A DNA stretch of 64,000 nt from NCBI RefSeq assembly GCF_003399645.1, contig NZ_NBXD01000007.1, positions 62,001 through 126,000 on the forward strand, written 5' to 3'. Shown here one piece after another: positions 11,664-29,474 of this stretch; the first letter of the stretch is position 1; each line of letters begins with the position of its first letter. The DNA is from Subtercola boreus (lineage in GTDB: Bacteria; Actinomycetota; Actinomycetes; Actinomycetales; Microbacteriaceae). Position numbers and translations under genes: made by a program. The notes below the pieces were generated by a model, which saw only the letters and a list, made by a program, of their open reading frames with translations, searched no databases and was not told where the DNA came from.

Positions 11664-13529
11664 GTGACCGGCACCTTCGGAGGCACCGCCGCGATGGACG
11701 GGGAGCTCGATTTTCGTACCCGGGTCATCCAGGTTCTCGCCATCGAGACGGCCGTGCGATACGGCGTCTTCTCGTTCTTCGTCGATATCCAGCCCGTCTG
11801 GGTGCGGGTCAGCCTCGCCGTGATCGCCGTGATGGCGGTCATCGTCGCTGTTCTGGTTCGCCGGGCCAATCCCGTCTCGCACCTTCCCGGTCGGGTTCTG
11901 ATCGTCGCCTCCATGTTCGTCGTGACCGCACTGTCGCTCGCCGTCACCACCTCCGATCTGGCGGTCATCACCTCGTTCTCGCTGCTCGGACTCACGCTCT
12001 CGTCGATCACTCTCGACTCCTACCGCGCCGGTGTGGTCGTCGGTCTGATCGGAACCTCGCTGGCCGTCTTCGTCGCCGTGGCGCGCAGCACCAGTCCGCT
12101 CGCGGTCGTCCTCATCTACGTGGGGCTCTTCGTCACGGGCTCCTTCCTCATTCTGCGGCTGCGGCAGTTTCTCGAGCTAGCCCGTGACCAGGCCGTCTCG
12201 CAGGCCAATTCCGATTCGCTCACGGGTCTGCTGAACCGGCGCGGGATGGAGACGCGGGTGCCGGAGCTCGACAGCGAGGCGAACGCGCTCGGCAAGCGCA
12301 TCGGGTGCCTCGTTCTCGACCTCGATCACTTCAAGAGCATCAACGACAGCTTCGGGCACCATGTCGGCGATCTCGTGCTGATTCGAGCCGCGAAGCTGCT
12401 CAACGATCAGGTTCGCACTCCCGATATCGTCGTGCGAACGGGGGGAGAGGAGTTCGCGGTCTTCGCCCTCGTGAATGACGAACTGGAGCTCGCCCGGCTG
12501 GCGAACCGGCTGCACGCTGCGCTCCGAGCCAGTGCGATCGCCGGGGCCAGGGCGCCCGAACCCATTCCTGCGGTGACCGCCAGCATCGGTGGATCGGTCG
12601 GGAGAGCCGCTACCCCTTCAGATCTGTCGACGCTGTTCCGGCGGGCAGATCGACTGTTGTACGACGCGAAACGCGCCGGCCGGGATACCATTCGAATCCA
12701 ATCCAGTTCTCAGCTGCGAAAGGACGACACCCCGATGGTTGCCGAACCCGGTGCCGAAGCGAGTCTCATCGCCGAGGTACGGGAAGGCGTTCGAAACCAT
12801 TCGGTCACGGTGGCCTATCAGCCGATCGTCGATCTGCAGCGGGGCCAGATCATGGGCTATGAGGCGCTGGCACGCTTCACCGATCGGCTCGGTGCGCCCG
12901 TCAGCCCGCCGACGCTCATCGCGATCGCGCGCCAGCTCGGCCTGCTCGACGAGCTCACCCTTCAGATCGCCACCCGTGCGTTCGCCGACATGGCCGCCTT
13001 CATGCGGCTTGAGCCCCAGGCCAGGGCGCTGCACCTGAACGTCGAGGGGCCGCAGATACACGTGCAATCGCTCTTCGACGGCCTGCGTGAACTGCGGCGT
13101 GAGCATCCGATGGTCGCCCTGCGACTGGAGTTCACCGAGGCGTCGCTCACCCACTTCGACGACGAGGCGCTGAACCACATGAAGGTGCTCACCGAAGAGG
13201 GGTTCGTCTTCGCGCTCGACGACTACGGACAGGATCAGGCCGACGCGGCGGCTCTGCTCCGGCTGCCGGTGTCATCGGTGAAGATCGACAAGATCTTCCT
13301 CGCCGACGAGACCAACACCAGGCACCGCATCATTCTCGGCTCGTTCTCGCACCTCATCACCGCCCTGCGCATGGAGGCGGTCGTCGAGGGGGTCGAGACG
13401 AGATCGGGGCACGACACGGCGCGGGATCTCGGTATCGGCTTCGCCCAGGGCTACCTCTACGGGCGACCGGCCACGGCCGGTGACACGCTCGCGAGGCTGT
13501 CCGCGAGCGGGCTCCGTGTCGAAACGTGA
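11664..13529 (+). CDS. Membrane-bound GGDEF-EAL protein (c-di-GMP cyclase/phosphodiesterase)
   Basis: 621 residues from GTG 11664; an ATG at codon 11 is an alternative start. Five to six hydrophobic segments form the N-terminal ~170 residues, probably a sensory membrane domain. The GGDEF domain reads 'GGEEF' at 260-264, a functional variant, with 'DLDHFKSINDSFGHHVGD' upstream. The EAL domain retains 'YEALARF' (E400-A-L), 'NVEGPQ', 'DDYGQDQAD', 'KIDKIF' and 'EGVET', so the metal-binding residues appear intact. Both synthesis and breakdown of c-di-GMP are possible; which dominates cannot be read from sequence. It is followed at 61 bases by a secreted beta-helix gene and then a second GGDEF gene. 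Confidence 0.9.
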   Translation: MTGTFGGTAAMDGELDFRTRVIQVLAIETAVRYGVFSFFVDIQPVWVRVSLAVIAVMAVIVAVLVRRANPVSHLPGRVLIVASMFVVTALSLAVTTSDLAVITSFSLLGLTLSSITLDSYRAGVVVGLIGTSLAVFVAVARSTSPLAVVLIYVGLFVTGSFLILRLRQFLELARDQAVSQANSDSLTGLLNRRGMETRVPELDSEANALGKRIGCLVLDLDHFKSINDSFGHHVGDLVLIRAAKLLNDQVRTPDIVVRTGGEEFAVFALVNDELELARLANRLHAALRASAIAGARAPEPIPAVTASIGGSVGRAATPSDLSTLFRRADRLLYDAKRAGRDTIRIQSSSQLRKDDTPMVAEPGAEASLIAEVREGVRNHSVTVAYQPIVDLQRGQIMGYEALARFTDRLGAPVSPPTLIAIARQLGLLDELTLQIATRAFADMAAFMRLEPQARALHLNVEGPQIHVQSLFDGLRELRREHPMVALRLEFTEASLTHFDDEALNHMKVLTEEGFVFALDDYGQDQADAAALLRLPVSSVKIDKIFLADETNTRHRIILGSFSHLITALRMEAVVEGVETRSGHDTARDLGIGFAQGYLYGRPATAGDTLARLSASGLRVET

Positions 13530-14772: not shown

Positions 14773-15810
14773 GTGTTCCCTGTGAAGATCTTCGCCAATC
14801 GAACTCCGAGAGAGATCCGCGCAATCGCTCTTCAGATCGTGTTCCTGCCCGGAGCGCTGTTTCTGGCAGTGTTGGCGTTCGCGGGAGAGTTCAATCCGCA
14901 GTGGGTTCGATCGGTCGCCTACGGTGGCGTGGTGGCCGGTCTCGCGATCGTCGTCGTGGCGCGGATCACGGACTGGGTGACCCGCCAGTTCCTGACGGCG
15001 ATCGTGGTCTCGACGATGGTTCTCACCCTCGTGATCGGGCTCAGCATCCAGCCCCAGGCGATCGGAACGCTGTCTGCCTTCGTCTTTCTGGGCGTGGCCG
15101 TGGGATCGTCTGCTTTTCTGAGGGTCGACACCGCCCTGGTGATCAGCGTGCTCTGCACGGCGTTCGGAGTGTTCGTCATTTCGATGCGATCCTCGATCCC
15201 CGTGGTAGCCATCATCATCTTCCTTGCGCTCATGACGATCTGCACAATGGTGGTGATCGTGCTGCGGCAGAGCCTCCAGCGGGCGCGCGACGAGGCGATC
15301 GCGCTATCGCTGACCGATTCCCTCACCGGTCTCGCGAACCGCCGCAGCATGGAGGTGAATGTGCCGCTGATGAGTGCCCTCGCCGATCGCACCGGCCAGT
15401 ACCTCGGTTCCCTCTTGCTCGACCTCGACCACTTCAAAGCAGTGAACGACACCTACGGGCACCACGTCGGCGACGAGATCCTCTGCGCGGTCGCCGAGGC
15501 GCTGCGGCAGGGCACGCGGGAGAGCGACCTGTGCGTGCGCATCGGTGGCGACGAGTTCTCGGTGTTCACGATCGTGAGCGATCGGGATGACCTGCAGCGC
15601 ATCGCCGAACGGCTGCGCCAAGCGATCGCCGACATGCCGACCGAGCCGTCGATGACCGCGAGCGTCGGAGGTTCGGTGCTGGATCGGGCCCTCTCACCCC
15701 GGTCGCCTGTGGTCGGCACCGACCTGTTCCTCCGCCAGGCAGACCGGGCGCTCTACCAGGCCAAATCGGCCGGCCGCAACCTCATCCAGATCGATTGGCC
15801 CTCGTCATGA
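14773..15810 (+). CDS. Membrane-bound diguanylate cyclase (GGDEF)
   Basis: 345 residues from GTG 14773; GTG 14782 (VKIFANRTPREI) is equally likely. Six hydrophobic segments span about residues 15-165. A short linker leads to a GGDEF domain with 'LTDSLTGLANRRSME', 'LDLDHFKAVNDTYGHHVGD' and an intact 'GGDEF' at 258-262, so it should make c-di-GMP from two GTP. No EAL domain follows. Its stop overlaps the ATG of the PAP2 phosphatase gene in ATGA, so the two are translationally coupled. It starts 28 bases after the beta-helix gene. Confidence 0.9.
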   Translation: MFPVKIFANRTPREIRAIALQIVFLPGALFLAVLAFAGEFNPQWVRSVAYGGVVAGLAIVVVARITDWVTRQFLTAIVVSTMVLTLVIGLSIQPQAIGTLSAFVFLGVAVGSSAFLRVDTALVISVLCTAFGVFVISMRSSIPVVAIIIFLALMTICTMVVIVLRQSLQRARDEAIALSLTDSLTGLANRRSMEVNVPLMSALADRTGQYLGSLLLDLDHFKAVNDTYGHHVGDEILCAVAEALRQGTRESDLCVRIGGDEFSVFTIVSDRDDLQRIAERLRQAIADMPTEPSMTASVGGSVLDRALSPRSPVVGTDLFLRQADRALYQAKSAGRNLIQIDWPSS

Positions 15811-16392: not shown

Positions 16393-17316
16393 TCACAGCG
16401 TGGGGAGCTCCCAGCCGTACTGCCGGGCCAGCACGGAGACGAGGAACAGCGCTGCCCAGATGCCGCCGACCGCGAAGAGCTTGAGATCTTTGAACACCAC
16501 TTCCTCGGGCGCCGCAGCCTCGCCGCGCTCGATGTCGAACGCATACAGCAGCAATGCGACCCCGAAAGGGACGATGGATGCGATCGACCCGATCGACGTG
16601 CCACCGTTCAGGTCGAACGCCCACATCGCATAGGAGAGCATCGTGAGGGTGGCGGCGACGGTCCAGACGAAACGCAGGTAGCCGAGCGAGTACAGGTCGA
16701 GGGTCTTTCGCGTGTGGGCTGCCTCATTGCCCTCGCTGCTCACCTTCTCGGAGTACCTTTTGCCAGCCACCATGAAGAGCGAACCCGAGGAGATCACCAG
16801 CAGGAACCACTGGGTCACCGGCACGCCGACCACCGCGGCCCCGGCGATGGCCCGCAGCACGAATCCGCTGGCGACGACGATGATGTCGATGACGGGCTGG
16901 TGCTTGAGCCAGATGCAGTAGGAGACCTGGATGACAACGTAGGCGGCGAGCACCACGCCGAACGTCGCGTACCCGAGCAGCAGGGCGATCGCGGCCGGCG
17001 CGATCAACAGCACGATCGAGGTCGGCCAGGCCACCCGCGACGGGAACTCGCCCGAGGGGATCGGCCGGAACCGCTTCTTCGGGTGCAGTCGATCACTCTC
17101 GATGTCGAGGAGGTCGTTCAGCATGTACCCGCCCGAGGAGGTGAGGCTGAACGCGATGATCGCGAGCACGACCTCGGGAATGACCCCGGGCTCGAGAATC
17201 ACACCGGCCGAGAGGGGCGCGAGGGCGAGGAGCACATTCTTCAGCCACTGTTTCGGCCGCATCGCCCGCAGCGCGGCCGGGCCTCTCGGAGCAGCTTGCA
17301 CCTTGACACTCGTCAC
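16393..17316 (-). CDS. UbiA-type decaprenyl-phosphate phosphoribosyltransferase
   Basis: 307 residues. The Asp-rich prenyl-phosphate/Mg motif 'NDLLDIESDRLHPKKRFRPI' follows a basic 'RPKQWLKN' near the N-terminus, the signature of the Rv3806c branch of the UbiA superfamily. Eight to nine transmembrane helices are apparent. The enzyme transfers 5-phosphoribose from PRPP to decaprenyl phosphate, the first committed step to decaprenylphosphoryl-arabinose (DPA). The PAP2 gene is convergent, and the GtrA-DprE1-DprE2 operon is divergent across a 146-base shared upstream region. All DPA-pathway steps are therefore grouped here. Confidence 0.9.
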   Translation of the reverse strand: MTSVKVQAAPRGPAALRAMRPKQWLKNVLLALAPLSAGVILEPGVIPEVVLAIIAFSLTSSGGYMLNDLLDIESDRLHPKKRFRPIPSGEFPSRVAWPTSIVLLIAPAAIALLLGYATFGVVLAAYVVIQVSYCIWLKHQPVIDIIVVASGFVLRAIAGAAVVGVPVTQWFLLVISSGSLFMVAGKRYSEKVSSEGNEAAHTRKTLDLYSLGYLRFVWTVAATLTMLSYAMWAFDLNGGTSIGSIASIVPFGVALLLYAFDIERGEAAAPEEVVFKDLKLFAVGGIWAALFLVSVLARQYGWELPTL

Positions 17317-17462: not shown

Positions 17463-17879
17463 GTGAGAACCGGAGTGCTCTACGTCGTCTTCGCGGCCCT
17501 CTCCACGGTCACCAACCTCGGCTCGCAGGTCATTGTGCAGCACCTCTACACCGGGCCCTTTGCGCTCGTCGTGGCCGTCATCGTGGGCACCGGCGTGGGC
17601 GTCGTCACGAAGTACCTCCTCGACAAACGCTTCATCTTCCGTTTCGAAGTGAAGAGCATAAAACACCAGGCGCGTACGCTCGGTCTCTATACGCTGATGA
17701 GCGGGGTAACGACGCTCGTCTTCTGGGCCTTCGAGTTCGGGGCCTTCTACCTCTTCGGCACCGACCTGGCCAAGTATTCTGGGGCAGTGATCGGCCTGGC
17801 GCTCGGCTACCTCATCAAGTACCAGCTCGACAAGAACATCACCTTCAAGGCCGACACGACCGGAGTGAACACACTGTGA
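17463..17879 (+). CDS. GtrA-family membrane protein (Rv3789-like)
   Basis: 138 residues from GTG 17463. Four hydrophobic helices with 'NLGSQVIVQHLYTGPFAL', 'VTKYLLDKRFIFRF' and 'YLIKYQLDKNITFK' match the GtrA/DPMS-associated family. In mycobacteria the GtrA protein Rv3789 sits directly before dprE1 and was proposed to move or tether decaprenylphosphoryl-arabinose at the membrane; the exact role there is debated. The same gene order is seen here, with a 4-base overlap (GTGA) into dprE1, indicating translational coupling. Confidence 0.88.
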   Translation: MRTGVLYVVFAALSTVTNLGSQVIVQHLYTGPFALVVAVIVGTGVGVVTKYLLDKRFIFRFEVKSIKHQARTLGLYTLMSGVTTLVFWAFEFGAFYLFGTDLAKYSGAVIGLALGYLIKYQLDKNITFKADTTGVNTL

Positions 17880-19219
17880 GCAAGGTATCCTCCTGGGGCA
17901 GGCTCTCCGACGCCGATCACGAGGTGGTCGCGATCTCGTCGGCGGCTTCGGCTGCCGGGGTGCTGGCTGCCACCGCACCCGGTGTCGCCCGCGGCATGGA
18001 ACGCAGCTACGGCGACGTCGCGCTGAACAGCGGCGGAACCCTGTGGGACACCCGGTCGATGAACCGTTTTCTGGCCTTCGACGCCGAGACGGGCATCCTG
18101 AGCTGCGAACCGGGTGTACTGCTTCGTGACATCCAGGCCACCTTCAGCAGGCAGGGCTGGATGCTCGCCGTCACGCCCGGCAGTGAGATCGTGACCGTGG
18201 CGGGCGCCATCGCGAACGATGTGCACGGCAAGAACCATGCCACGCGGGGCACCTTCGCCGACCATGTCACGTCGATCACGCTGGTGCGAACGGATGGCGA
18301 GGTCATCGTGTGCGGGCCGGGAACGGGCCCGGGCGAGGAGTCGAGCCGACGCGAGTGGTTCGAGGCCACCTGTGGTGGGCTGGGGCTCACCGGGCTCATC
18401 GTCGAGGCGTCGCTGCGCCTGAAGCGGGTACCGGGGCCCTGGCTTCTGGCCGAAGACGTGGCGTACCAGTCCCTGCCCGAGTTCTTCGAGCTGTCGGACT
18501 CGTCTGAAGCGGAGTTCGAGCATGTGGTGTCGTGGATCGACATCACCACCGACGGCGGTCGCCGCGGAATCCTCTCGCGCGCCAACTCGGTCCCGTCTCC
18601 GCACCGCGAGCCACCGGCGTCGGCCACCGGGCTGGGCGCGGCCCGCGGGGGCATCACATTTCCGCTGGTGCCTCCCGTGTCACTCGTCAACCGGCTGACG
18701 CTGCCGGCGCTGAACCGCGCCTACTACCGGCTCAAGCGGGCGGGAGTCGGCTCGAGTGTCGTGCACTACAAGCCGTTCTTCTACCCTCTCGACGCCATCC
18801 AGGAGTGGAACCGGGCGTACGGCCCGCGTGGCTTCTACCAGTACCAGTGCGTGCTGCCCCGCGACGTCGGCATGGCGGCGGTGGAGGAGATCCTGGCGCT
18901 GGTCGCGCGGTCGGGCCAGGGGTCGTTCCTCGGCGTGCTGAAGACGCTCGGTGACCGCGAGCCGATCGGGATGCTCAGCTTCGCCCGGCCCGGAGTGAAC
19001 CTGACGATCGACTTTCCGAACCTCGGTGCCTCGACCCTCGCGCTGCTGTCGTCGCTCGACACCGTGGTCGCGGCGGCCGGCGGCCGGCTGTACCTCGCCA
19101 AAGACGCGCGCATGCCCGTCTCCCTGTTCGAGGCGGGGTATCCGCGCCTCGACGAATTCGTGACCTACCGCGACCCGGGCATCAGCTCGGAGATGTCGCG
19201 CCGACTGTTAGGAAGCTAG
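17876..19219 (+). CDS. dprE1: Decaprenylphosphoryl-beta-D-ribose 2'-oxidase
   Basis: 447 residues from GTG 17876, overlapping the GtrA stop. The N-terminal FAD_binding_4 domain has 'RGMERSYGDVALNSGG', 'TPGSEIVTVAGAIANDVHG' and 'GKNHATRGTFADHV', closely matching DprE1. The C-terminal part has 'VVHYKPFFYPLD', 'YQYQCVLP' and 'YLAKDAR', whose Lys (K409) corresponds to the active-site Lys418 of M. tuberculosis. The cysteine attacked by benzothiazinones (Cys387, in 'WNVCVDF') is Thr377 here ('VNLTIDF'). The enzyme oxidises decaprenylphosphoryl-ribose to the 2-keto intermediate that DprE2 reduces. A longer open frame starting at 17102 belongs to no known extension and is ignored. Confidence 0.93.
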   Translation: MSKVSSWGRLSDADHEVVAISSAASAAGVLAATAPGVARGMERSYGDVALNSGGTLWDTRSMNRFLAFDAETGILSCEPGVLLRDIQATFSRQGWMLAVTPGSEIVTVAGAIANDVHGKNHATRGTFADHVTSITLVRTDGEVIVCGPGTGPGEESSRREWFEATCGGLGLTGLIVEASLRLKRVPGPWLLAEDVAYQSLPEFFELSDSSEAEFEHVVSWIDITTDGGRRGILSRANSVPSPHREPPASATGLGAARGGITFPLVPPVSLVNRLTLPALNRAYYRLKRAGVGSSVVHYKPFFYPLDAIQEWNRAYGPRGFYQYQCVLPRDVGMAAVEEILALVARSGQGSFLGVLKTLGDREPIGMLSFARPGVNLTIDFPNLGASTLALLSSLDTVVAAAGGRLYLAKDARMPVSLFEAGYPRLDEFVTYRDPGISSEMSRRLLGS

Positions 19220-20020
19220 ATGCCGACCTCTGCAACCCGTCCCTCATCTGCGCCGTCTCCGGCCGGCTGGCCGACCGATCTCGTCATCGTGGGTGCCACG
19301 TCGGCCATCGCCGAGAACTGCACGCAGCTCTGGCTGGAGGGTGGGGCATCCCGCGCCCTGCTCATCGGGCGTGACGGGGCGAAGCTGGCGCGCATCCAGA
19401 CCGACCTCGGGGTGCGCTTCCCGTCGGCGGTCATTACGATCTCGGAGACCGACTTGGTGAACACGGCGTCGATCACGGCGGCTGTGGCCGGGTTCGCGGG
19501 TGCCGGCACACCGGGGGCGGCTGCTGGATCGGGTCTCACCGTGCTGATCGCCCACGGATCGATGACCGACCAGGCCGAGTCGCAGGCCGACCTCGAGAAG
19601 GCCGCCCAGGTGCTGCAGGTCACGGGGGTCTCGCCCTCGCTCTGGATGGAGGCGTGCGCCGACACCATGACCGCCGGCACGATCGCGGTGCTCGGCTCGG
19701 TCGCCGGCGACCGGGGCCGCAAGACGAACTACATCTACGGTGCGTCGAAAGGCCTGATCGAGAAGATGGCCGAGGGCCTGCAGCACCGCCTGGCGGGCTC
19801 GCCGCTTCGCGTGGTGCTGGTCAAGCCCGGGCCGACGGCGACCCCGATGACGGCACATCTCGACGCCTCCTCGCTCGCCTCGGTGTCGTCGGTGGCGGCC
19901 GAGATCGTGAAGGGTGTGAACGCGGGCACCCCCGTCGTGTACGCCCCCCTGAAGTGGAAGCTCATCATGGCGGTGGTGCGGGCGATCCCCCGCCCCATCT
20001 TCCACAAACTCAACTTCTGA
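19220..20020 (+). CDS. dprE2: Decaprenylphosphoryl-2-keto-pentose reductase (SDR)
   Basis: 266 residues; the ATG directly follows the dprE1 stop. Short-chain dehydrogenase features are present: 'VIVGATSAIAENC' for NAD(P) binding, 'IGRDGAKLARI', 'VLGSVAGDRGR', and the catalytic 'YGASKG' (Tyr-x-x-x-Lys), then 'VLVKPGPTATPMT'. Together with DprE1 it completes the epimerisation of decaprenylphosphoryl-ribose to decaprenylphosphoryl-arabinose, the arabinofuranose donor for wall arabinan. It is the last gene of the operon; a palindromic repeat begins 41 bases after the stop. An Ala/Gly-rich insertion ('GAGTPGAAAGSG') lies in the middle of the fold. Confidence 0.9.
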   Translation: MPTSATRPSSAPSPAGWPTDLVIVGATSAIAENCTQLWLEGGASRALLIGRDGAKLARIQTDLGVRFPSAVITISETDLVNTASITAAVAGFAGAGTPGAAAGSGLTVLIAHGSMTDQAESQADLEKAAQVLQVTGVSPSLWMEACADTMTAGTIAVLGSVAGDRGRKTNYIYGASKGLIEKMAEGLQHRLAGSPLRVVLVKPGPTATPMTAHLDASSLASVSSVAAEIVKGVNAGTPVVYAPLKWKLIMAVVRAIPRPIFHKLNF

Positions 20021-20060: not shown

Positions 20061-20112
20061 ATTTTGCGCAAAAGCACCCATCCGCCGAGCGTTGGGTGCT
20101 TTTGCGCGAAAT
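20061..20112. repeat. Dispersed palindromic repeat, copy 1
   Basis: Perfect 15-bp arms GCGCAAAAGCACCCA (20066-20080) and TGGGTGCTTTTGCGC (20093-20107) around a 12-base loop. The outer ATTT/AAAT bases extend the stem to 20 bp with one mismatch. The same arms recur at 21168-21215 and, degenerated, at 27242-27287. Located 41 bases after dprE2, it could end that transcript, but there is no T-run. The identical arms with different loops point to a REP-like element. The remaining sequence to 20227 shows nothing else. Confidence 0.85.
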
Positions 20113-21166: not shown

Positions 21167-21167
21167 C

Positions 21168-21215
21168 TTTGCGCAAAAGCACCCACACCTGCGGCCTTGG
21201 GTGCTTTTGCGCAAA
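21168..21215. repeat. Dispersed palindromic repeat, copy 2
   Basis: Perfect 18-bp arms TTTGCGCAAAAGCACCCA (21168-21185) and its complement (21198-21215) around a 12-base loop. It starts 2 bases past the DUF559 stop and 46 bases before the end of the convergent MshEN-GT2 gene, so it could act as a bidirectional terminator. The arms are identical to copy 1 over the inner 15 bp, but the loop differs. Confidence 0.88.
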
Positions 21216-21260
21216 ACGCGCGGGAGGCGGGGAGGCGGGGGCGGGGGCGGACGCGCGGGG

Positions 21261-23207
21261 TCAGGCGGCGGCGTTGCCCTCGAAGGCGGAGTCTTCGTAG
21301 TCCTCGGTGAGGCCGTGGGGGGTCTTCTCCCAGTGGTGGGGGCTGAAGACGATCTGCCAGGCTGCGCGCCAGGCGGAGATGGAGTGCAGGATCCAGTACG
21401 CGGGGTTCAGCAGCGCGAACATCGCGACCCGCCAGTTGTACCGCTTCCACGCCGCCAGGCCGGAGACGATGATCATCAGCCCGTTCGAGAGGAGCATGTT
21501 CGTCGTTCCCGCCACGATCAGCCACTCCGGCAGGTCGAGCCCGATGAACTGCACCCCGAGGTAGGTGAAGATCGTGAATCCGAGCACAAGCGGGTACAGC
21601 AGGAAGGCCAGCGGCGTGCCCAGGATGAGGGCGACCAGCGACAGGGCGCCGAGAACGCCGTTCACCCGGAACCACCGCACAGGGTGCCGGGTGTTCACGG
21701 CGGCCGTCATGATGTAGCCCTTGATCCACCGGGTTCGCTGGCGGATCCACGCGCCCACCTCGGCGCACGCCTCTTCGCCGGTCGAGGCATCCACGACACC
21801 CACTCGGTACCCGTGCGCTGCGACGCGGAGGCCCAGGTCGGCATCCTCTGTCACGTTGTACGGATCCCAGGCGCCGAGCTGGCGGAGTACCGCGGTGTCG
21901 AAGTGGTTCGACGTGCCCCCGAGCGGGATGGGGAGGTGCGACTGGTCGAGGCCCGGCAGCATCGAGTCGAACCAGTGCGCGTACTCGACGGCGAACAGGC
22001 GGGTCAGCACGTTGTAGTCCGCATTGAAGTAGACCAGGGCTCCCTGCAGGCAGACCAGTTTCTTCTGGTCGGGATCGACGTAGCGTCGCTCGAACTCGTC
22101 CTGCCGGAAGGCGGCGACGGTGTCGCGCAGCTGGGACGGGTTGGGGCGGTCTTCGGCGTCGTAGATCACCACGAACTCGCCGCGGGCGAACGACAGGCCG
22201 TAGTTGCAGGCGCGGGGCTTCGTCTGCGGGCCCCCGGGCGGCACGATCACCATGCGCACATACTCCGGCGGGCGCATGGTGCGAACCGCCGAGATCGTCT
22301 CGTCGTCGTCGGCCTCGAGCAGCACCATGACCTCGAGCTTCGCCTTGGGATAGTCGATGGCGCCGAGGTTGACGAGCAGCTTGCTGATGATGTTCGCCTC
22401 TTTGTAGGCGGGAACGAGGATCGTGTAGATCGGCAGCTCATTGTCGGGAATGCGCGAGGGCAGCGGCTTCAGCCCTCGCCGTACCCGCTCGAGCGAGACC
22501 TCTGTGGCCCAGCGTTCCTTGTCGCGCAGGTTGAAGGGCGCGCGAAAGCCCGCCACCGCCTTGAACGTGATGTTCATCAGGAAGATGCAGTTGGCGAGCG
22601 TGAGCACGATCACGAGAGTGGTGGTCAGGTTGATCAGACAGCCCACCACGATGATGGCGACGATGATTCCAGGCACCACGATCTGCCAGCGACGAAGGCC
22701 CTCCTTGGCCGATTCATCAGAACTCTCAGTCGCCAGCGCATCGGAGGCACCGAACAGCAGGCGCGTGCGGCACGCCGCCTCGACGGCCTGGTTCAGGTCC
22801 CAGTCGGTGGTCGTCCGCACGCGGATGCTGCGCACCCCGAGCATGCGGCGGGCGGCGTACAGCACGTCTTCGGTGGGTGGCACCGTGGTCGCGATGACGG
22901 CCGCGTTGCCGTCCCGCTTCCACGGAACCCAGCCCGCCTCGATGTACTTCTCGGGCTCGTCGGTCGAGAACAGACCGGCCTGCGGCGGGTTCTCGAGGAG
23001 ATCGACGAGGGGGGCGTCCCACTGCACCGCGAGAGCTTCGTACATCTCGCGCCGGGTCACCGCGCCCGAGAGGATCAACTGCCGCCCCAGCAGGCCGCCC
23101 TCGAGCGACTGGCGGGCCAGGGCGTCCTGCAACTCGACCTCAGAGACGAGGCCGGCCTCGAGCAGGATCTCGCCCACGCGGCGGGGGGCGCGTTGGATGT
23201 CGGTCAC
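21261..23207 (-). CDS. MshEN-domain family 2 glycosyltransferase (probable c-di-GMP-responsive exopolysaccharide synthase)
   Basis: 648 residues from GTG 23207; the frame extends upstream only over the preceding gene. Residues ~8-68 form a MshEN (GspE N-terminal) domain: 'RRVGEILLEAGLVSEVELQD' followed by 'GGLLGRQLILSGAVTRREM' and 'ALAVQ', matching the two RxGxxL/LGxxL repeats that bind c-di-GMP in other proteins. Two helices (~176-212) precede a processive-type GT2 domain with 'VPAYKE', 'LEADDDE', 'YDAEDRP', 'GGTSNHF', 'TEDADLGLR' and 'QRTRW' (490-494), then four C-terminal helices. The layout resembles BcsA/NfrB-type synthases. It is the last gene of an operon with GT-C-like and BcsB-like partners; the upstream stop is 2 bases away. 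The product polymer is unknown. Confidence 0.85.
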   Translation of the reverse strand: MTDIQRAPRRVGEILLEAGLVSEVELQDALARQSLEGGLLGRQLILSGAVTRREMYEALAVQWDAPLVDLLENPPQAGLFSTDEPEKYIEAGWVPWKRDGNAAVIATTVPPTEDVLYAARRMLGVRSIRVRTTTDWDLNQAVEAACRTRLLFGASDALATESSDESAKEGLRRWQIVVPGIIVAIIVVGCLINLTTTLVIVLTLANCIFLMNITFKAVAGFRAPFNLRDKERWATEVSLERVRRGLKPLPSRIPDNELPIYTILVPAYKEANIISKLLVNLGAIDYPKAKLEVMVLLEADDDETISAVRTMRPPEYVRMVIVPPGGPQTKPRACNYGLSFARGEFVVIYDAEDRPNPSQLRDTVAAFRQDEFERRYVDPDQKKLVCLQGALVYFNADYNVLTRLFAVEYAHWFDSMLPGLDQSHLPIPLGGTSNHFDTAVLRQLGAWDPYNVTEDADLGLRVAAHGYRVGVVDASTGEEACAEVGAWIRQRTRWIKGYIMTAAVNTRHPVRWFRVNGVLGALSLVALILGTPLAFLLYPLVLGFTIFTYLGVQFIGLDLPEWLIVAGTTNMLLSNGLMIIVSGLAAWKRYNWRVAMFALLNPAYWILHSISAWRAAWQIVFSPHHWEKTPHGLTEDYEDSAFEGNAAA

Positions 23208-23209
23208 CG

Positions 23210-24931
23210 TCAGATCCGCTCGTAGATTCGGTAGTCGCCCTTTTCGAAGACGACCCGGTAGGCGGTCTGGAACGAGGACTGGTTCTTGATCTTGTCGTAG
23301 ACGAGGTCGGCCACGCCGGTCTGGCTGAGCTCGGGCGCGTCTGCGGTCGACACGAAAACCCACTTTGCGTGGGTGGCGGGGCTGGCGATCGCCGCGGTGA
23401 ACAGGTCGCCCGTCGATCGGTTGTAGTAGTCGACGAGCGGAATGCCGATCTCGGGCAGCAGCGCGCTACCGGCCGCCGATTCATCCATCAGCACCTGCCC
23501 GCCGTCGTAGTTGTCGTGCAGGAACCGTGCGGCGTCGGTCGCCCCGCTGGCCGCCTTGAGCTGTACGTAGCCGTCGGCTTCAGCGATGACGGATGATCGT
23601 GCCGGGTCGGTCGCCCACCACGCCGTCTGCAGCACCAACGCCAGGCCCACCAGCGCGACGAGCCCCGGAGCGACGCGGGGCACGCGCGTCAGGGAATCGA
23701 CGAAGACGGCCGCGAGCACGGCGAGCCACGGGATGACCGCCAGGGCGTACCGCGAATTCCACCAGTTCTCGGGCAGCGAGTGGTCGTTGTTCATGTGCGT
23801 CTGGCCGAGGAACAGGCTCAGCAGCGAGAAGCCGTAGGCGACCCCCATCACCCAGACCAGCAGGGCCTTGTTCGAGAGCCCCCAGCGCCAGGCGAGCACG
23901 ATGGCGCCGGCGATTCCGAGCAGCACCGTCACGAGGCCCGCGGTCTCGAGTACCGACCAGTTGTAGGTCCAGAGCGTCAGGCCGGCGTTGTGCGTGTAGG
24001 CGAGCAGCCCCGCGTCGGCCGTGGCTTTCTGCAGGTTCGCGGCCGAATACTGGCCGTTCAGAAACTCGAGCGGGTTGCTGTAGACCGCGAAGTTGTAGGC
24101 GAGCCACCACGCGATCGCCACGGCGGGCAGAGTGGCGAAGGCGGCGGCCATCTTGATGGCGTACCGGAGTTCCTGCTTGCGCCGCCAGGCCGCGATGAGC
24201 ACGACGAGGCTGCCCCCCACCACGAGCACCCAGCCCTCGTAACGGGACAGGGTGGCGCCGGCGGCAGGCAGCCCGGTGAAGACCATCATCTCGCCAGCAC
24301 TCAGGTTTCGCCTCGAGGTGACCCAGTGGGCGAGCCCGGCGAAACACCCCATCATGCAGAGGATGAGCACGGGCTCGGTGAGCGCCGTCGTGTACAGATA
24401 CAGGATGCTCGGATTGGCGATGATCAACAGAACGCCGACGATGCGTGCCGAACGCCCCAGCCCGACGCGGGCTGCCACGCGGTAGACGCCGCAGGCCGTA
24501 CCCATCAGGCAGACGAGGCCGAGCAGCCCGGCTGCCAGGCCCGTGTGCCAGAGCCAGAGGTTCTGCACGAACGGCACGAGGATGAGGCTGGGCACGGGCA
24601 GCCAGACGGTGCCCAGCTGAGTGAAGCCGGGTGCCTTGCTGTCGAAGATGCGCCGGGAGATGGTGAGATGGCTCTGCGAGTCGGCGTAGGCGATGTTGAT
24701 CCCGGAGGAGGTCGTCACGTAGACGGCGACGATGCCCACGGCCAGGGCGGCCACGGCGACGACCATGGTTCCCGGTACACGCCGGCCCGCGGCGGGGGCG
24801 GCGAGCGAGGCCCAGCGATCGAGCAGCCAGGTCTGGAAGCGCGAGGGTGTGGGTGCGGGTGCCGGTGCCGCGGGCGCGCTCTCGCCGGGCGTGGCGGGGG
24901 TGCCGCGGTGCTCCGACGTCAGCGCGCTCAC
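23210..24931 (-). CDS. Polytopic GT-C-like (GT39/ArnT-type) membrane glycosyltransferase
   Basis: 573 residues from GTG 24931. After an Ala/Pro-rich cytosolic tail there are about 12 hydrophobic segments. The first outer loop has 'AYADSQSHLTISRRIFDS' and 'GFTQLGTVWLP', the Asp-containing loop typical of GT-C enzymes that use polyprenyl-phosphate sugars. The C-terminal ~150 residues are a soluble extracytoplasmic domain ending 'FEKGDYRIYERI'. It lies 9 bases after the BcsB-like gene and 2 bases before the MshEN-GT2 gene, so all three are one transcription unit. It may add side sugars to the polymer or act in its export. The sugar donor is unknown, but decaprenylphosphoryl-linked sugars are made nearby. 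Confidence 0.78.
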   Translation of the reverse strand: MSALTSEHRGTPATPGESAPAAPAPAPTPSRFQTWLLDRWASLAAPAAGRRVPGTMVVAVAALAVGIVAVYVTTSSGINIAYADSQSHLTISRRIFDSKAPGFTQLGTVWLPVPSLILVPFVQNLWLWHTGLAAGLLGLVCLMGTACGVYRVAARVGLGRSARIVGVLLIIANPSILYLYTTALTEPVLILCMMGCFAGLAHWVTSRRNLSAGEMMVFTGLPAAGATLSRYEGWVLVVGGSLVVLIAAWRRKQELRYAIKMAAAFATLPAVAIAWWLAYNFAVYSNPLEFLNGQYSAANLQKATADAGLLAYTHNAGLTLWTYNWSVLETAGLVTVLLGIAGAIVLAWRWGLSNKALLVWVMGVAYGFSLLSLFLGQTHMNNDHSLPENWWNSRYALAVIPWLAVLAAVFVDSLTRVPRVAPGLVALVGLALVLQTAWWATDPARSSVIAEADGYVQLKAASGATDAARFLHDNYDGGQVLMDESAAGSALLPEIGIPLVDYYNRSTGDLFTAAIASPATHAKWVFVSTADAPELSQTGVADLVYDKIKNQSSFQTAYRVVFEKGDYRIYERI

Positions 24932-24940
24932 GGTGTGCCG

Positions 24941-27046
24941 CTACTCCGGGAGCCGGTCGGGGTTCGCGATCGCGGCAGGTGCGGCCGCGGCATCCGTTCG
25001 TTCCCTGTCGGCTACGAGCTGGGCATCCACATACTTCTTGAGTTTCGCGCGGCGTCGGCGACGCGTGAACTCGCCGATCGCTGCGGCGAACACGAGAACG
25101 ACGATGATGACGACCGCCCAGATCGCGTAACGGTTGTACTCGCTCGTCACCGCCGCCTGCGGCACGATGGCGTTGCTCGACAGGGCAACCGGGTCGGCGA
25201 GTCCCGGCTGGGCGATGATGACGTCGCCCGACAGGCCGAACCAGGCGCCCGGGTTGCTGACCGCATAGTCGGCGGCCTGTCGCTGCAGCTGCTCTGTCGC
25301 ACTGCTGGTCGACCCGTCGGGGGCCCAGCCGCCGAGCATCACGATGTTGCGGCCGCTGGACTCGAACGACTCCAGGGCGGCAAAGGGAGAGGTCGACCCG
25401 ACGCCGAAGCTCACCGCAGACGAGTCGATCGCTTTGAACGAGTCGAGCCGCAGGGGCGCCTTCAGCGACGACGAGTCGTCTGTTGTGGCCCCGACGATGA
25501 GCCCGGGCTGGGACGAGCCGGCGAAGTCTGCGGCCGACATGACCGTCACAGCGAGCTGGATGCTCGAGTTGCGCTGCAGAGAGGCGACGAGGTCACCGGC
25601 CGCCGCCACTGCTGCCGAGTCCGCCAGCCCGGCGCCGAACGCGACGGGAAGCGTGCCGCCGAGCGCCTGGGGAAAGCGCTGGAACCCGGCGTCGAGGCTC
25701 TGCCCCCGCGTCGCGGTGACGGTGGAGGCCTTGTTGTCGACGAACAGCTCGATCGGAATCGACCGCAGTGTCGACGAGCACTCGCCCGTGACCGATTCGG
25801 CGCTGAGCGAGACGCGCAGGGCATTGGATGCCGTCAGCCGGGTGGCCGCGACCGGCAGCGTCACGTCGAACGCGGGTGTGTGGCCGAGAACGCTCGACCC
25901 AATGAGGTAGCTGTTCCAGTACACGTTCATAGTCGCGGTGACGGTGTCGGGAATGTCGGAGTGCATGCCGAGGAGGTGCACGCTCGCCTCGCTGACCGGC
26001 CCGCCGAACGCGGACTGGTCGACGTTCACCACAGAACCGGTCTGCCCGTAGCCGGACAGCGAGAGTTCGTTGCCGGCCCCGAGGCTCTGCAGGGACTGCA
26101 CGAGGTTCGCCGGCACCTGGCCGGTCTGGGTCAGCCCCGAAACGTCGCCGGCATCTGCCAGCGCGAGGTAGTCGCTGCCGAGCGCGGCTCCCGCTGCGGC
26201 GAGCTCGGCCTCCGGGCCCGAGATGGTGAGCGTGGGTACGCCCGCGGCTCCGGTGGAGAGCTGGGTCGTGACGGTGTCTCCGGATGCGACGATGGCCACG
26301 ACGCGCCCGCGTTCGGGCTCGACACGTGTTGCGCTCCCGGTGTCGCCGGCCGTGCTGAGAGTGATCGCGACGCTCGAGGGGAAGGCGTGCGCCAGCGACC
26401 CCACAGCGGCAAGGCCGGCCTGTTTGAGGGCGGCTGTAGGAGCATCCGGAACCACCACGGAGACGGCATTCAGGGCGGGGGAGAAGAAATCGCCTACGGT
26501 CGTCGGAGCGGTGGCCTCACCCGTCACGGCCACGGTCACGGCGCTGAGGGAGACGGTGGCACCCGACGGTAGCAGGCAGGCAGCGTTGCCGGTCGACGAC
26601 GAGGTCGGGGTAGCGGGGAGGTACGTGAACCCAATGGCGACCTGGCCGTCGACGACGTCGGAGGCCGAGAGCGGGATGCTCACCGCGGCTGGCGCGGTCG
26701 GGTCGATGCTCTGGCGCACCTCGCCCTTGACGCTGACCTGCACTGAACCGGGTATGCCCGTCGAACTCGGAGTCTGCGGGGCGAGTGTCGCGGAGGCGCT
26801 CGCGGGGGAGAGGCCCGCGGGGATGTTCACCGTGACGAACACGGGAGCCGAGTCATCGGTGATCGTGTCGATCGCCGGCGCCGAGAGGGTACCGGGTGCA
26901 TCGGTGACCTGCCGGGCCTGCTGCGCCTGCGTGGTCACTGCGTGGGTGGTCTGCGCCGCGCTCGCCGCCAGGGGTGCTGACATCAGCACGGCTACGGCCC
27001 CCGTCAGGGTGAGTGCTCGCAGAGTCCAGGGAGAGAAGACGCTCAT
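24941..27046 (-). CDS. BcsB-like exopolysaccharide synthase accessory protein
   Basis: 701 residues from ATG 27046 ('MSVFSPWTLRAL'), the start that opens a normal signal peptide ending 'APLAASAAQ'; the frame runs back to 27097. A long extracytoplasmic region shows the BcsB layout: beta-rich jelly-roll and flavodoxin-like parts with 'ATMNVYWNSYLIGSSVLG', 'RLTASNALRVSL', 'SIPIELFVDNKAS' and 'RNIVMLGGWAPDG'. One C-terminal helix ('YAIWAVVIIVVLVFAAAIG') is followed by a basic cytosolic tail. In cellulose systems BcsB guides the polymer from BcsA through the periplasm. Here, in a Gram-positive, it would sit outside the membrane and pair with the MshEN-GT2 synthase. First gene of the operon. Confidence 0.8.
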   Translation of the reverse strand: MSVFSPWTLRALTLTGAVAVLMSAPLAASAAQTTHAVTTQAQQARQVTDAPGTLSAPAIDTITDDSAPVFVTVNIPAGLSPASASATLAPQTPSSTGIPGSVQVSVKGEVRQSIDPTAPAAVSIPLSASDVVDGQVAIGFTYLPATPTSSSTGNAACLLPSGATVSLSAVTVAVTGEATAPTTVGDFFSPALNAVSVVVPDAPTAALKQAGLAAVGSLAHAFPSSVAITLSTAGDTGSATRVEPERGRVVAIVASGDTVTTQLSTGAAGVPTLTISGPEAELAAAGAALGSDYLALADAGDVSGLTQTGQVPANLVQSLQSLGAGNELSLSGYGQTGSVVNVDQSAFGGPVSEASVHLLGMHSDIPDTVTATMNVYWNSYLIGSSVLGHTPAFDVTLPVAATRLTASNALRVSLSAESVTGECSSTLRSIPIELFVDNKASTVTATRGQSLDAGFQRFPQALGGTLPVAFGAGLADSAAVAAAGDLVASLQRNSSIQLAVTVMSAADFAGSSQPGLIVGATTDDSSSLKAPLRLDSFKAIDSSAVSFGVGSTSPFAALESFESSGRNIVMLGGWAPDGSTSSATEQLQRQAADYAVSNPGAWFGLSGDVIIAQPGLADPVALSSNAIVPQAAVTSEYNRYAIWAVVIIVVLVFAAAIGEFTRRRRRAKLKKYVDAQLVADRERTDAAAAPAAIANPDRLPE

Positions 27047-27241
27047 TGACCATCCGATAGAAAAGGCGCCACGGGGGCGCCACGCTGACAAGTTCACTGC
27101 ATTACGAGGGTGATTGCGTCGACGGGCGGGCGGGGTGTAGATGTTGCCACCGCCGTCAGTGCGATCCTAGGGGAAATCTCAGCCCGCTGTGCCCCGTTCG
27201 CGGGTCAGTCGCCCTCGGTGCAGCCCCGGCCCCCGCGCGTC

Positions 27242-27287
27242 TTGCGCAAAAGCACCCACCGGGCAGCGTGTGCGTGCTTCTGCGCAA
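27242..27287. repeat. Dispersed palindromic repeat, copy 3 (degenerate)
   Basis: Arms TTGCGCAAAAGCACCCA (27242-27258) and its complement with two mismatches (27271-27287). It lies between two divergent genes, 14 bases before the GTG at 27302, where a terminator would make no sense for either. This supports a mobile or REP-like origin rather than a terminator role. The rest of 27047-27241 must hold the EPS operon promoter, but I cannot define it. Confidence 0.7.
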
Positions 27288-27301
27288 AATAGACTGGCTG
27301 C

Positions 27302-27916
27302 GTGAACACCAGGCCGGCCCGCGTCATCCGTGGGCTGGCGGCTGCGCTCTTCGCGGTGTTCGTCGCATCGTTCTCCCACGTCGCGGGCGGCGGCACCGCA
27401 CCCGGAACCGTCGGTCTCGTGCTGGCGCTGGCGTTCTCCGCGGTGGTGTGCGTCGGGCTTGCGGGAAAGTCGCTCTCGATCATCCGGTTGTCGGCGTCTG
27501 TTGCCCTGAGCCAGCTCGTGCTGCATGCGCTGTTCAGTGTGGGTGCGAACGCGGGTGACGCAACACTCACGGTGAGCGGGATGGGGCACCACGGCTCCAT
27601 GCTCGTCTCGATCTCCGAAGGCACGGCTGCCGCAGCCGCGACGTTCTGCTCGTGGATGTGGGTCGCCCACGTACTCGCGGCCGTCGTGACGGTTCTCGCC
27701 CTGCGACGCGGCGAAGGCGCGTTCTGGGGCCTGGTGAGTCTCGCCGGCCGGCGGTTCACGCGGCTGGTGCGGCCTCTGTTCGTCGAACCGCGACCCGTAC
27801 TGCGGCCCGATCGCAGCCGGTTCTCGCTCGAACCCGATCACCCTCGTGACCTGGGAATCTTTCTCGGAAGGCTGCGTCATCGCGGCCCTCCCGTGTGTGT
27901 GCGAATCGCGAGCTGA
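27302..27916 (+). CDS. Hypothetical membrane protein of a copper-handling cluster
   Basis: 204 residues from GTG 27302. Four hydrophobic segments lie within residues 8-145, with His-rich loops ('ASFSHVAGGG', 'GMGHHGSML'), followed by a basic cytosolic tail. It precedes the YcnI and CopC genes by 56 bases on the same strand. Membrane proteins of this shape are often found beside YcnI/CopC in actinobacteria, so a part in copper handling is inferred from the neighbourhood and the His residues. The exact family is not recognised. Confidence 0.65.
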   Translation: MNTRPARVIRGLAAALFAVFVASFSHVAGGGTAPGTVGLVLALAFSAVVCVGLAGKSLSIIRLSASVALSQLVLHALFSVGANAGDATLTVSGMGHHGSMLVSISEGTAAAAATFCSWMWVAHVLAAVVTVLALRRGEGAFWGLVSLAGRRFTRLVRPLFVEPRPVLRPDRSRFSLEPDHPRDLGIFLGRLRHRGPPVCVRIAS

Positions 27917-27972
27917 CTCCCCACACACACGAAGCACGGCCGGGCCACCCCGGCCGAGAGAAGGAACACCCC

Positions 27973-28761
27973 ATGAAGAAGAGCACGATCGCGCGCGCCG
28001 CCGCATCGTCGGGCATCGCCCTCGCCCTCACCCTCGCAGCCCCCCTGGCCGCCAGCGCCCATGTGCATGTCGACCCCGACCGGGCTGCCCCCGGTTCGTA
28101 CTCCACCCTCACGTTCAAGGTTCCCACCGAGAGCGCAACCGCCAGCACCGTCAGGCTCGAGGTCGACCTCCCCACCGACACCCCCTTCGGCAGCGTCTCG
28201 TACCAACCGGTCGCAGGCTGGTCGGTGCAGGTCGTCGAGGGTACCCTCGCAACCCCCGTCACCACCGATGACAGCACGGTCACCGAGGCTCCCACACAGA
28301 TCATCTGGACAGCGGATGCGGCCACCGCGGGCGCGGCGACCGGTATCGCCCCGGGCCAGTTCGAGCTGTTCTCGATCTCGGCCGGACCCATTCCCGACAC
28401 CGGGAGCATCGCGCTGCCGACCCACCAGACCTATTCCGACGGGTCGGTGGTGGACTGGGTGGATGCCCCGCTCGCCTCGGGTGCAGAGCCCGAGCACCCG
28501 GCTCCGGTGCTCTACATCACGGATGCGCCGCCGGTCAGCGAGGAGGGCGCTGCGGGCACTTCGGGCACTGCGACCGTCTCTCCGGGCGCAGGTTCCGACT
28601 CGTCTGGCGGAGCGGTCGTGACCCAGGGAACGGCGGTGGTGGACTCATCGAGCAGCACGGTTTCTGTCATCGTCGCGATCGCCGCCCTCGTGCTGGCTGC
28701 GATCGCCCTCGTCGTGTCGGTCGTGGCCGTGACCCGTCGTTCAGGGCAGGGGCGCGCATGA
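27973..28761 (+). CDS. YcnI-family (DUF1775) copper-binding protein
   Basis: 262 residues from ATG 27973, preceded by AAGGA at 7 bases. A signal peptide ends 'APLAASA' and the mature protein would begin with His ('HVHVDPDRAAPG'), the histidine that coordinates copper in YcnI proteins together with a nearby Glu. The domain continues with 'STLTFKVPTESATASTVRLEV' and 'GWSVQVV'. A Ser/Gly/Thr linker leads to one C-terminal helix ('VIVAIAALVLAAIALVVSVVAV') and 'RR', so it stays anchored at the outer face of the membrane. The stop overlaps the start of the CopC gene (ATGA). Confidence 0.9.
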   Translation: MKKSTIARAAASSGIALALTLAAPLAASAHVHVDPDRAAPGSYSTLTFKVPTESATASTVRLEVDLPTDTPFGSVSYQPVAGWSVQVVEGTLATPVTTDDSTVTEAPTQIIWTADAATAGAATGIAPGQFELFSISAGPIPDTGSIALPTHQTYSDGSVVDWVDAPLASGAEPEHPAPVLYITDAPPVSEEGAAGTSGTATVSPGAGSDSSGGAVVTQGTAVVDSSSSTVSVIVAIAALVLAAIALVVSVVAVTRRSGQGRA

Positions 28762-29474
28762 GTCGCCTCCTCGGTACCTCGAAGCGGCGGCGGATGATCG
28801 GCGCCGCGACGGTCGTCATCGTGGCAGCGGCGCTCGCGCTGGTGCCGGCGAGTACCGCGAGCGCCCACGACTACCTCGTCTCGAGTTCTCCGGCCGCCGG
28901 TTCCACCGTCACGTCAGCGCCCTCCGAGGTCAGCCTGACCTTCAACGACCTCGTGCTCGATCTCTCACACGACAGTTCGTCGGCGATCGTCGAGGTGACA
29001 GGGCCGGATGCCTTGACCACCCATTTCGAGACGGGCTGTGCGAGCATCCTGAGTCACACTGTGAGCGCGCCGACCGCTCCCGGCGGGCCGGGAGACTACG
29101 TGGTGAGCTGGCAGATCGTGTCGTCTGACGGGCATCCCGTGAGCAGTTCGCTGACGTTCCATTACGCCCCGGCGGCGGGCACGGTCGCGGCGGCCGGAAG
29201 TGCGACCGCACCCGCCTGCGGGCGAGCCGGGGCGACCGGGCCGGGGGTGATTCCGGCCGACGGAACGAGTGCCGGCGACGGTGCGGCCGGCTGGGTCATC
29301 CTCGGCGTCGCGGGCGGCATCGTGCTGCTCGCGGTCATTGCGGGGGCCATCGTTCTGGTGCTTTCAGGCCGGCGCAGAGTCGGTGGGAAAGTTGCGCAAA
29401 AAAGATCTGAATCCGGGCAATCCGGTTTGCCCGGGGTTCCGAATGATGATTGTAGAGCCACACACGACTTCTAA
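28758..29474 (+). CDS. CopC-domain copper-resistance protein
   Basis: 238 residues from ATG 28758. A signal peptide ends 'ASTASA' and the mature chain begins 'HDYLVSSSPAAGSTV', typical of CopC with an N-terminal copper-binding His. The second conserved block is 'VVSWQIVSSDGHPVSSSLTF', whose DGH is the other copper site. A linker and a single helix ('GWVILGVAGGIVLLAVIAGAIVLVL') end in basic residues. Translationally coupled to YcnI. The last 25 codons contain strong inverted repeats, and the C-terminal tail may not be conserved. No CopD is adjacent. Confidence 0.88.
   Translation: MSRLLGTSKRRRMIGAATVVIVAAALALVPASTASAHDYLVSSSPAAGSTVTSAPSEVSLTFNDLVLDLSHDSSSAIVEVTGPDALTTHFETGCASILSHTVSAPTAPGGPGDYVVSWQIVSSDGHPVSSSLTFHYAPAAGTVAAAGSATAPACGRAGATGPGVIPADGTSAGDGAAGWVILGVAGGIVLLAVIAGAIVLVLSGRRRVGGKVAQKRSESGQSGLPGVPNDDCRATHDF

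Follow-up and report, generated by a model that had tools for sequence, protein, structure and literature searches.

A putative c-di-GMP-responsive exopolysaccharide operon of Subtercola boreus that joins an MshEN-GT2 synthase to BcsB-like and GT-C-fold partners

Introduction

The closest described precedent for the system reported here, a three-gene operon in a window of 64,000 nucleotides from the actinobacterium Subtercola boreus (contig NZ_NBXD01000007.1; coordinates below are those of this whole stretch), is NfrB of Escherichia coli, a tested protein that combines a glycosyltransferase family 2 (GT2) domain and an MshEN domain in one chain and is thus a precedent for a GT2 synthase under MshEN control (PMC8669469; this and all other papers are cited from excerpts). 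In the NfrB/NfrA/YbcH system, NfrB depends on cyclic dimeric guanosine monophosphate (c-di-GMP) and the product is an exopolysaccharide (PMC8669469, PMC8669472), and a BcsB homologue is reported in the nfr cluster of Achromobacter xylosoxidans (PMC8669472). Among monoderm systems, Bacillus subtilis YdaJKLMN is a c-di-GMP-controlled putative exopolysaccharide synthase operon, in which, unlike here, a separate protein, YdaK, senses c-di-GMP (PMC13274460, PMC7064775). The clostridial CcsZABHI cellulose synthase is likewise monoderm; it lacks BcsC and has a BcsB-like partner that faces outward, but its CcsA has PilZ, and CcsB is said in the excerpt to be non-homologous to BcsB (PMC7710045).

The Subtercola operon encodes a synthase of the NfrB kind with the domain order reversed, MshEN standing first, together with a BcsB-like protein and, in contrast to the nfr system, a partner with a predicted glycosyltransferase C (GT-C) fold; NfrA was not recognised here. 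Compared with the BcsA-BcsB cellulose synthase, it has MshEN instead of PilZ, and again the GT-C partner is added. The synthase scores far below the equivalog cut-offs for NfrB (NF008411, 22.5 bits of 1170) and for BcsA/CelA (TIGR03030, 42.5 bits of 699), and its MshEN domain is N-terminal and does not follow GT2; membership of either family was rejected on both cut-offs and architecture.

We read the operon as a synthase-dependent exopolysaccharide machine in which synthesis would be switched by c-di-GMP through the MshEN domain, and we give this reading a probability of about three in four, on the basis of domains, motifs, folds, gene order, neighbourhood and co-occurrence as judged from sequences or predicted models. 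To our knowledge, few c-di-GMP targets have been described in actinobacteria outside Streptomyces development, and the operon provides a concrete candidate output for this group, a surface polymer.

The operon and its synthase

The three genes are:

21261..23207, minus strand: MshEN-GT2 synthase (P0001), 648 residues, GTG start
23210..24931, minus strand: GT-C-fold membrane protein (P0002, fold predicted), 573 residues, polytopic
24941..27046, minus strand: BcsB-like protein (P0003), 701 residues

In the order of transcription (BcsB-like, GT-C-like, synthase), the gaps are 9 and then 2 bases, so that the three closely packed minus-strand open reading frames (ORFs) described in an earlier note on this DNA were confirmed, as were both MshEN repeats and the GT2 motifs that it had listed.

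The MshEN domain occupies approximately residues 1-145 of the synthase, with motif I at 10-33 and motif II at 39-62, and is matched above cut-off by both PF05157, the Pfam MshEN model (28.0 bits, cut-off 23.1), and NF053729, the NCBIfam c-di-GMP motif model (47.7 bits, cut-off 38). It reads RVGEILLEAGLVSEVELQDALARQ, spacer SLEGG, LLGRQLILSGAVTRREMYEALAVQ, in keeping with the published consensus of two 24-residue motifs and a 5-residue spacer (PMC5013675), and carries the anchors (R/K/L)LG...L...L..Q. The motif Gly and both terminal Gln are conserved. Departures from the consensus comprise two hydrophobic exchanges (Leu to Val11 and Leu to Met55) and a single anchor change, in which the second motif's Arg is replaced (Arg38 to Leu39). 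The alignment of contact residues that had been named as a possible refutation finds them retained, 14/14 with the (R/K/L) anchors and 13/14 with Arg/Lys only, the hydrophobic positions being leniently scored. In an alignment of the window and PilF sequences, Leu39 falls on L196 of Thermus thermophilus PilF GSPII-B. That domain, also of MshEN type and with Leu at the motif II anchor, belongs to a pilus ATPase and not to a synthase; it bound c-di-GMP at 6 nM, and its authors widened the consensus to (R/K/L)LG and hold that a hydrophobic anchor predicts very high affinity (PMC11731258).

The genome of the strain (98% complete) has one MshEN match and no PilZ match. The cis MshEN switch in place of PilZ that had been suggested earlier is hence supported, as a candidate, by the intact motif, the PilZ-free genome and the c-di-GMP enzymes that adjoin the operons of near relatives (see below).

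The GT2 domain spans approximately residues 250-500 and carries EADD298, DAED350, TED453 and QRTRW490; a hydrophobic stretch at 170-221 precedes it and more such stretches extend up to about residue 582. The features of a processive GT2 synthase (a DxD-type motif, TED, QxxRW and hydrophobic stretches around the glycosyltransferase domain) are therefore all present.

The BcsB-like and GT-C-fold partners

A Pfam search up to E 0.1 gave nothing for the window BcsB-like protein, which stays below the PF03170 cut-off that four of five tested relatives pass. In a structural comparison, the nine best rows for its predicted model were all BcsB chains, and the predicted BcsB fold extends over most of the length, with a layout of signal-like helix, beta-sandwich, alpha/beta, beta-sandwich, alpha/beta and C-terminal membrane helix. 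Cys157 and Cys423 of this protein (24941-27046) are invariant in 40/40 aligned sequences, for which a disulfide or a sugar-binding role is conceivable.

The GT-C-like protein also lacks a Pfam match at E up to 0.1, and its one NCBIfam match, at 24.2 of 200 bits, is far under the cut-off. Its predicted model adopts a GT-C fold, aligning to ArnT, PMT, OST and AftB, and the titles of structure entries matched by the model name Dol-P-Man, undecaprenyl phosphate and DPA. Asp84, an acidic residue near the first outer loop, is found in 21/21 aligned trio-type sequences and is a candidate for the catalytic acid. The assignments of both partners in the earlier note were thus borne out at the level of predicted folds.

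Cyclic di-GMP enzymes and the state of the MshEN motif

The two nearby c-di-GMP enzymes noted before are present:

11664..13529, plus strand: membrane GGDEF-EAL protein, candidate supplier or remover of c-di-GMP
14773..15810, plus strand: membrane GGDEF protein, candidate supplier of c-di-GMP

Their GGEEF, GGDEF and EALAR motifs are in place, and the genes lie 5.5-9.6 kb from the 3' end of the synthase gene, not the 6-15 kb first given; they account for two of the five GGDEF matches in the genome. Between them, a right-handed beta-helix protein (rhamnogalacturonase/epimerase-like; 13591-14745, plus strand) is encoded, which could act on surface polysaccharide; at the congener locus L146 (L and G numbers designate loci and genomes) no gene intervenes in this way, the EAL and GGDEF ORFs overlapping instead.

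A relative of the synthase (E up to 1e-60) is present in 37 of 299 family genomes and GGDEF in 154, and the 37 family loci examined (11-20 kb) came from 35 of the 36 other genomes with such a relative. GGDEF/EAL is encoded in the stretch at 10 of the 12 family loci with a BcsB-like gene versus none of the 25 without (Fisher 1.9e-7, kinship ignored; one of the 25, L154, ends at a contig edge). A GGDEF-EAL gene adjoins the trio on the same strand either upstream of BcsB (L150-L152, L042) or downstream of the synthase (L153, L156, L157); in the congeners L146-L148 it lies 3.6-4.3 kb away on the opposite strand, and in Paenarthrobacter L037 the synthase is followed by two such genes, one GGDEF and one GGDEF-EAL.

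A wider sample comprises the best 80 loci of a contig scan with a nine-sequence alignment, in which at least 579 of 591 stretches were confirmed. For each locus we scored the motif at 14 contact positions, using lenient residue sets that we chose ourselves, and counted scores of at least 9 as intact; the window and three fetched congeners score 13. Loci with an intact motif had GGDEF/EAL in the stretch in 12 of 36 cases, where the GGDEF counts of the genomes themselves predict 2.44 (0 of 200,000 draws reached 12), and those with a decayed motif in GGDEF-bearing genomes in 1 of 17 against 0.80 expected, the GGDEF and EAL profiles having been built from window, L037 and L062 sequences, of which L037 and L062 are also among the counted loci.

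At the level of whole genomes, no intact motif occurs without GGDEF. In the 80 loci, all 36 intact motifs are in GGDEF-bearing genomes, and decayed motifs divide into 17 with and 27 without GGDEF (Fisher 8e-10); the corresponding figures are 15, 0, 5 and 8 for Actinomycetota alone (Fisher 4e-4) and 12, 0, 7 and 18 for the family sample (Fisher 3.7e-5), where 12/12 intact motifs accompany GGDEF. The two samples overlap (G445 is represented by the contig of L041, G402 by that of L043 and G614 by that of L085). Use of the extended (R/K/L) anchor set left the tables unchanged at thresholds 9 and 10, and the family table also stayed at 12, 0, 7 and 18 when both Gly and both Gln were demanded.

Several observations nevertheless weigh against control by c-di-GMP. 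The window enzymes are on the strand opposite to the operon, with other genes intervening. In a PilF GSPII-A construct, Ser at the anchor occupied here by Leu39 abolished binding (PMC12002112). Demanding both Gly and both Gln changes the 80-locus table to 11, 0, 42 and 27 (p 0.013), with just 11 intact motifs, and six of the 36 loci scored as intact (Arthrobacter, Paenarthrobacter) are without the motif I Arg and Gln, while the motif is decayed in 17 of the 53 GGDEF-bearing genomes of this set. Finally, a tree of catalytic columns implies at least 10 changes of GGDEF state and 11 of motif state, but gives 6 independent GGDEF contrasts on well-supported branches, in which the motif followed GGDEF in 1.4 cases on average and never moved against it, a result that is not significant. 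Because the tree gives only these 6 contrasts, few independent events stand behind the one-sided pattern, and after this correction for kinship we do not use the association as proof.

Distribution of the three genes

Partner genes were located with iterated profiles built for this analysis within 4 kb of the synthase gene, the flanks being short in some loci. A GT-C-type gene was found in 73, a BcsB-like gene in 52 and both in 50 of the 80 loci, across ten phyla, monoderm and diderm, and in 49 of the 50 trio loci all three genes are on the same strand. The earlier note had called it unusual for a BcsB-like protein to occur in the absence of an outer membrane and together with a GT-C enzyme; these counts contradict that claim, as do a trio on a Geobacillus plasmid and the published Achromobacter homologue (PMC8669472), so that of the earlier interpretation the main line stood and the rarity did not. 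The survey of gene order suggested at the time shows both partners upstream of the synthase in 12 loci, ten of them Actinomycetota, with the order of the window (BcsB, GT-C, GT2) in all but Aquificota L063, where GT-C is the first gene. BcsB precedes and GT-C follows the synthase in 35 loci. In the open-licence literature searched, we found neither the trio with a GT-C enzyme nor its breadth.

Closer to the window, 8 of 296 genomes of the phylum (own genome excluded) had matches over most of the query at E < 1e-110, and among the matches listed the closest named relative is a Subtercola metagenome-assembled genome (L042, 85% identity). Of six other sampled genomes of the genus, three encode the synthase (91-92% identity) and the remaining three gave no hit at E 1e-60. 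Genomes G457 and G518 contain two trio copies each (L149/L156 and L157/L158). A second class in the same family (L159-L182) has GT2, mostly with a short GT-C-type neighbour, and no BcsB was found; the N-terminal MshEN is decayed or missing, and no c-di-GMP enzyme is encoded in the stretch.

A plasmid of Geobacillus stearothermophilus typed as conjugative bears the trio with a GDP-mannose pyrophosphorylase-like gene (L032, 6952-12310), which suggests that the machine can be mobile; a Hyphomicrobiales plasmid also bears the trio. In Bacteroidota (L082, L086 and other Mucilaginibacter loci among them), the trio is kept with a decayed MshEN and is possibly under different control; L082 has a histidine kinase gene and a glycoside hydrolase family 5 (GH5) gene upstream, whose clusters recur at other loci.

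Neighbours at distant loci hint at chains of beta-mannan or glucan type there. GMP-PMI-like (GDP-mannose pyrophosphorylase-like) genes stand beside four loci, two of them over the equivalog cut-off; a cluster with GH113 occurs in 6 loci and one with GH5 in 14, the nearest solved chains of the one member tested from each being beta-1,4-mannanases and endoglucanases, respectively. None of the three was recognised among the scanned window proteins, and a backbone sugar taken from these neighbours was rejected for the window. A GmsA-glucomannan link (PMC11406972) is a lead from which no support is drawn.

Adjacent arabinose-donor genes

Between the c-di-GMP enzyme genes and the operon lie three genes that the earlier note did not mention:

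16393..17316, minus strand: decaprenyl-phosphate phosphoribosyltransferase (UbiA family); NF008978 332.1 bits, cut-off 207; also over the PF01040 cut-off
17876..19219, plus strand: DprE1-like oxidase; NF053785 328.9 of 500 bits, below cut-off
19220..20020, plus strand: DprE2-like reductase; NF053786 122.5 of 250 bits, below cut-off

They are candidates for the first, second and third steps to the GT-C donor, and a comparison of the oxidase with solved structures ranks DprE1 chains first (6hfv, E 2e-69). Mycobacterial decaprenyl-phosphate-arabinose serves cell-wall arabinogalactan. The likeness to the mycobacterial pathway (DprE1, AftB, EmbB) lies in the presence together of phosphoribosyltransferase, DprE1-like, DprE2-like and GT-C proteins; the differences are the scores below the DprE1 and DprE2 equivalog cut-offs and the association with an exopolysaccharide synthase.

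Among the 37 family loci, L042 and L037, the DprE1- and DprE2-like genes are in the stretch at L146, L147, L148, L042 and L152, and neither was found at E 1e-15 in the remainder of the first set (L032-L116). A DprE1 match (E 1e-40) occurs in 10 of 299 family genomes, of which seven belong to the 11 trio genomes and three to the remaining 288 (Fisher 9.7e-10, kinship ignored), and within the genus in 4/4 genomes with the synthase and 0/3 without (p 0.03). In five of the seven trio genomes with a match, DprE1 is 0.8-2.0 kb away from the trio, in one 25 kb away and in one on another contig; the phosphoribosyltransferase is found in 7/11 trio genomes and 11/288 others. Since GT-C arabinosyltransferases use decaprenyl-phosphate-arabinose (an EmbB entry is titled as DPA-bound), it is simplest to suppose that the GT-C enzyme of this lineage may draw on that donor. 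This is tempered by the four of 11 trio genomes without a DprE1 match at E 1e-40, in which the donor would differ or be made otherwise, and by the restriction of DprE1-bearing trio genomes to two genera that branch near each other on the tree.

Proposed mechanism and alternative explanations

We propose that the nearby plus-strand GGDEF and GGDEF-EAL proteins would set the level of c-di-GMP, which would bind the synthase at its N-terminal MshEN domain; the resulting change would be passed to the GT2 domain, which would polymerise sugar from a nucleotide donor and push the chain out via its own membrane helices. Outside, the BcsB-like protein, anchored by its one C-terminal helix, would receive or guide the chain, and the GT-C protein, supplied with polyprenyl-phosphate sugar, would add side sugars on the outer face, perhaps with arabinose from the adjacent decaprenyl-phosphate-arabinose genes in this lineage, or would cap or prime the chain.

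The strongest alternative is that GT2, instead of being a polymer synthase, attaches a single sugar to a lipid carrier or builds a short glycan, GT-C glycosylating a cell-wall polymer or protein and the BcsB-like protein being a scaffold. The GT-C fold is indeed typical of enzymes with polyprenyl- or dolichyl-phosphate donors, a decaprenyl-phosphate pentose pathway adjoins the operon, and the GT-C partner is commoner than BcsB (73 vs 52 of 80 loci). We nonetheless consider it unlikely: QRTRW, DAED and TED together form the processive-synthase set named for NfrB (PMC8669469), and the chain-guiding BcsB fold would be left without a role, although the motif argument is not decisive, the best-matching curated synthase models (NfrB-, BcsA- and PgaC-type) all being far below cut-off.

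Less probable still is a genuine machine whose MshEN no longer senses c-di-GMP and serves as a structural N-terminal cap, with control at transcription or by substrate, as might be suggested by the operons kept with a partly lost motif in Arthrobacter relatives (score 9-10 of 14), by Bacteroidota that retain the trio with the motif decayed and GGDEF mostly absent, and by Romboutsia RiGT2, which depends on a PilZ domain unresponsive to c-di-GMP (PMC10374906), but which sits poorly with the intact motif of the window and three congeners and the c-di-GMP enzymes 3.6-4.3 kb off in the latter. Control by a riboswitch or other RNA was rejected, a transfer RNA being the sole RNA over the gathering score in the scanned range 8000-32000 and no riboswitch being found there.

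Beyond the c-di-GMP-switched exopolysaccharide machine itself, we tentatively entertain a broader reading, to which we give less than even odds: that MshEN-GT2/BcsB/GT-C is an unrecognised, phylum-spanning class of such machines making a decorated beta-glycan, in which the GT-C enzyme here would take arabinose from a dedicated decaprenyl-phosphate-arabinose pathway outside any arabinogalactan wall and in which the c-di-GMP switch would be detachable, kept together with diguanylate cyclases, perhaps at very high affinity where Leu-anchored, and decaying where these are lost while the machine persists. Locus L155, for example, keeps the trio with a decayed motif (score 6) in a 1.4 Mb genome without a GGDEF match. 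On our main reading, the machine joins Bcs-type export to a GT-C enzyme and a different putative c-di-GMP sensor in diderm and monoderm bacteria alike; the neighbouring genes suggest that the DprE pathway may serve an end beyond the mycobacterial wall, and loci with a decayed sensor but a retained machine constitute natural experiments.

Other features near the operon

A 50-bp hairpin element (arm TTTTGCGCAAAAGCACCCA, 12-nt loop, reverse arm) occurs at 20062-20111, 21167-21216 and 27240-27289, two of the three copies flanking the operon, one on each side. The arm matches six times against 0.01 expected, and with 9 further perfect copies elsewhere in the genome the element looks like a dispersed repeat of the repetitive extragenic palindromic (REP) type. 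Near the upstream end of the trio, DUF1775 and CopC genes (27895-29474, plus strand) form a likely copper-handling pair.

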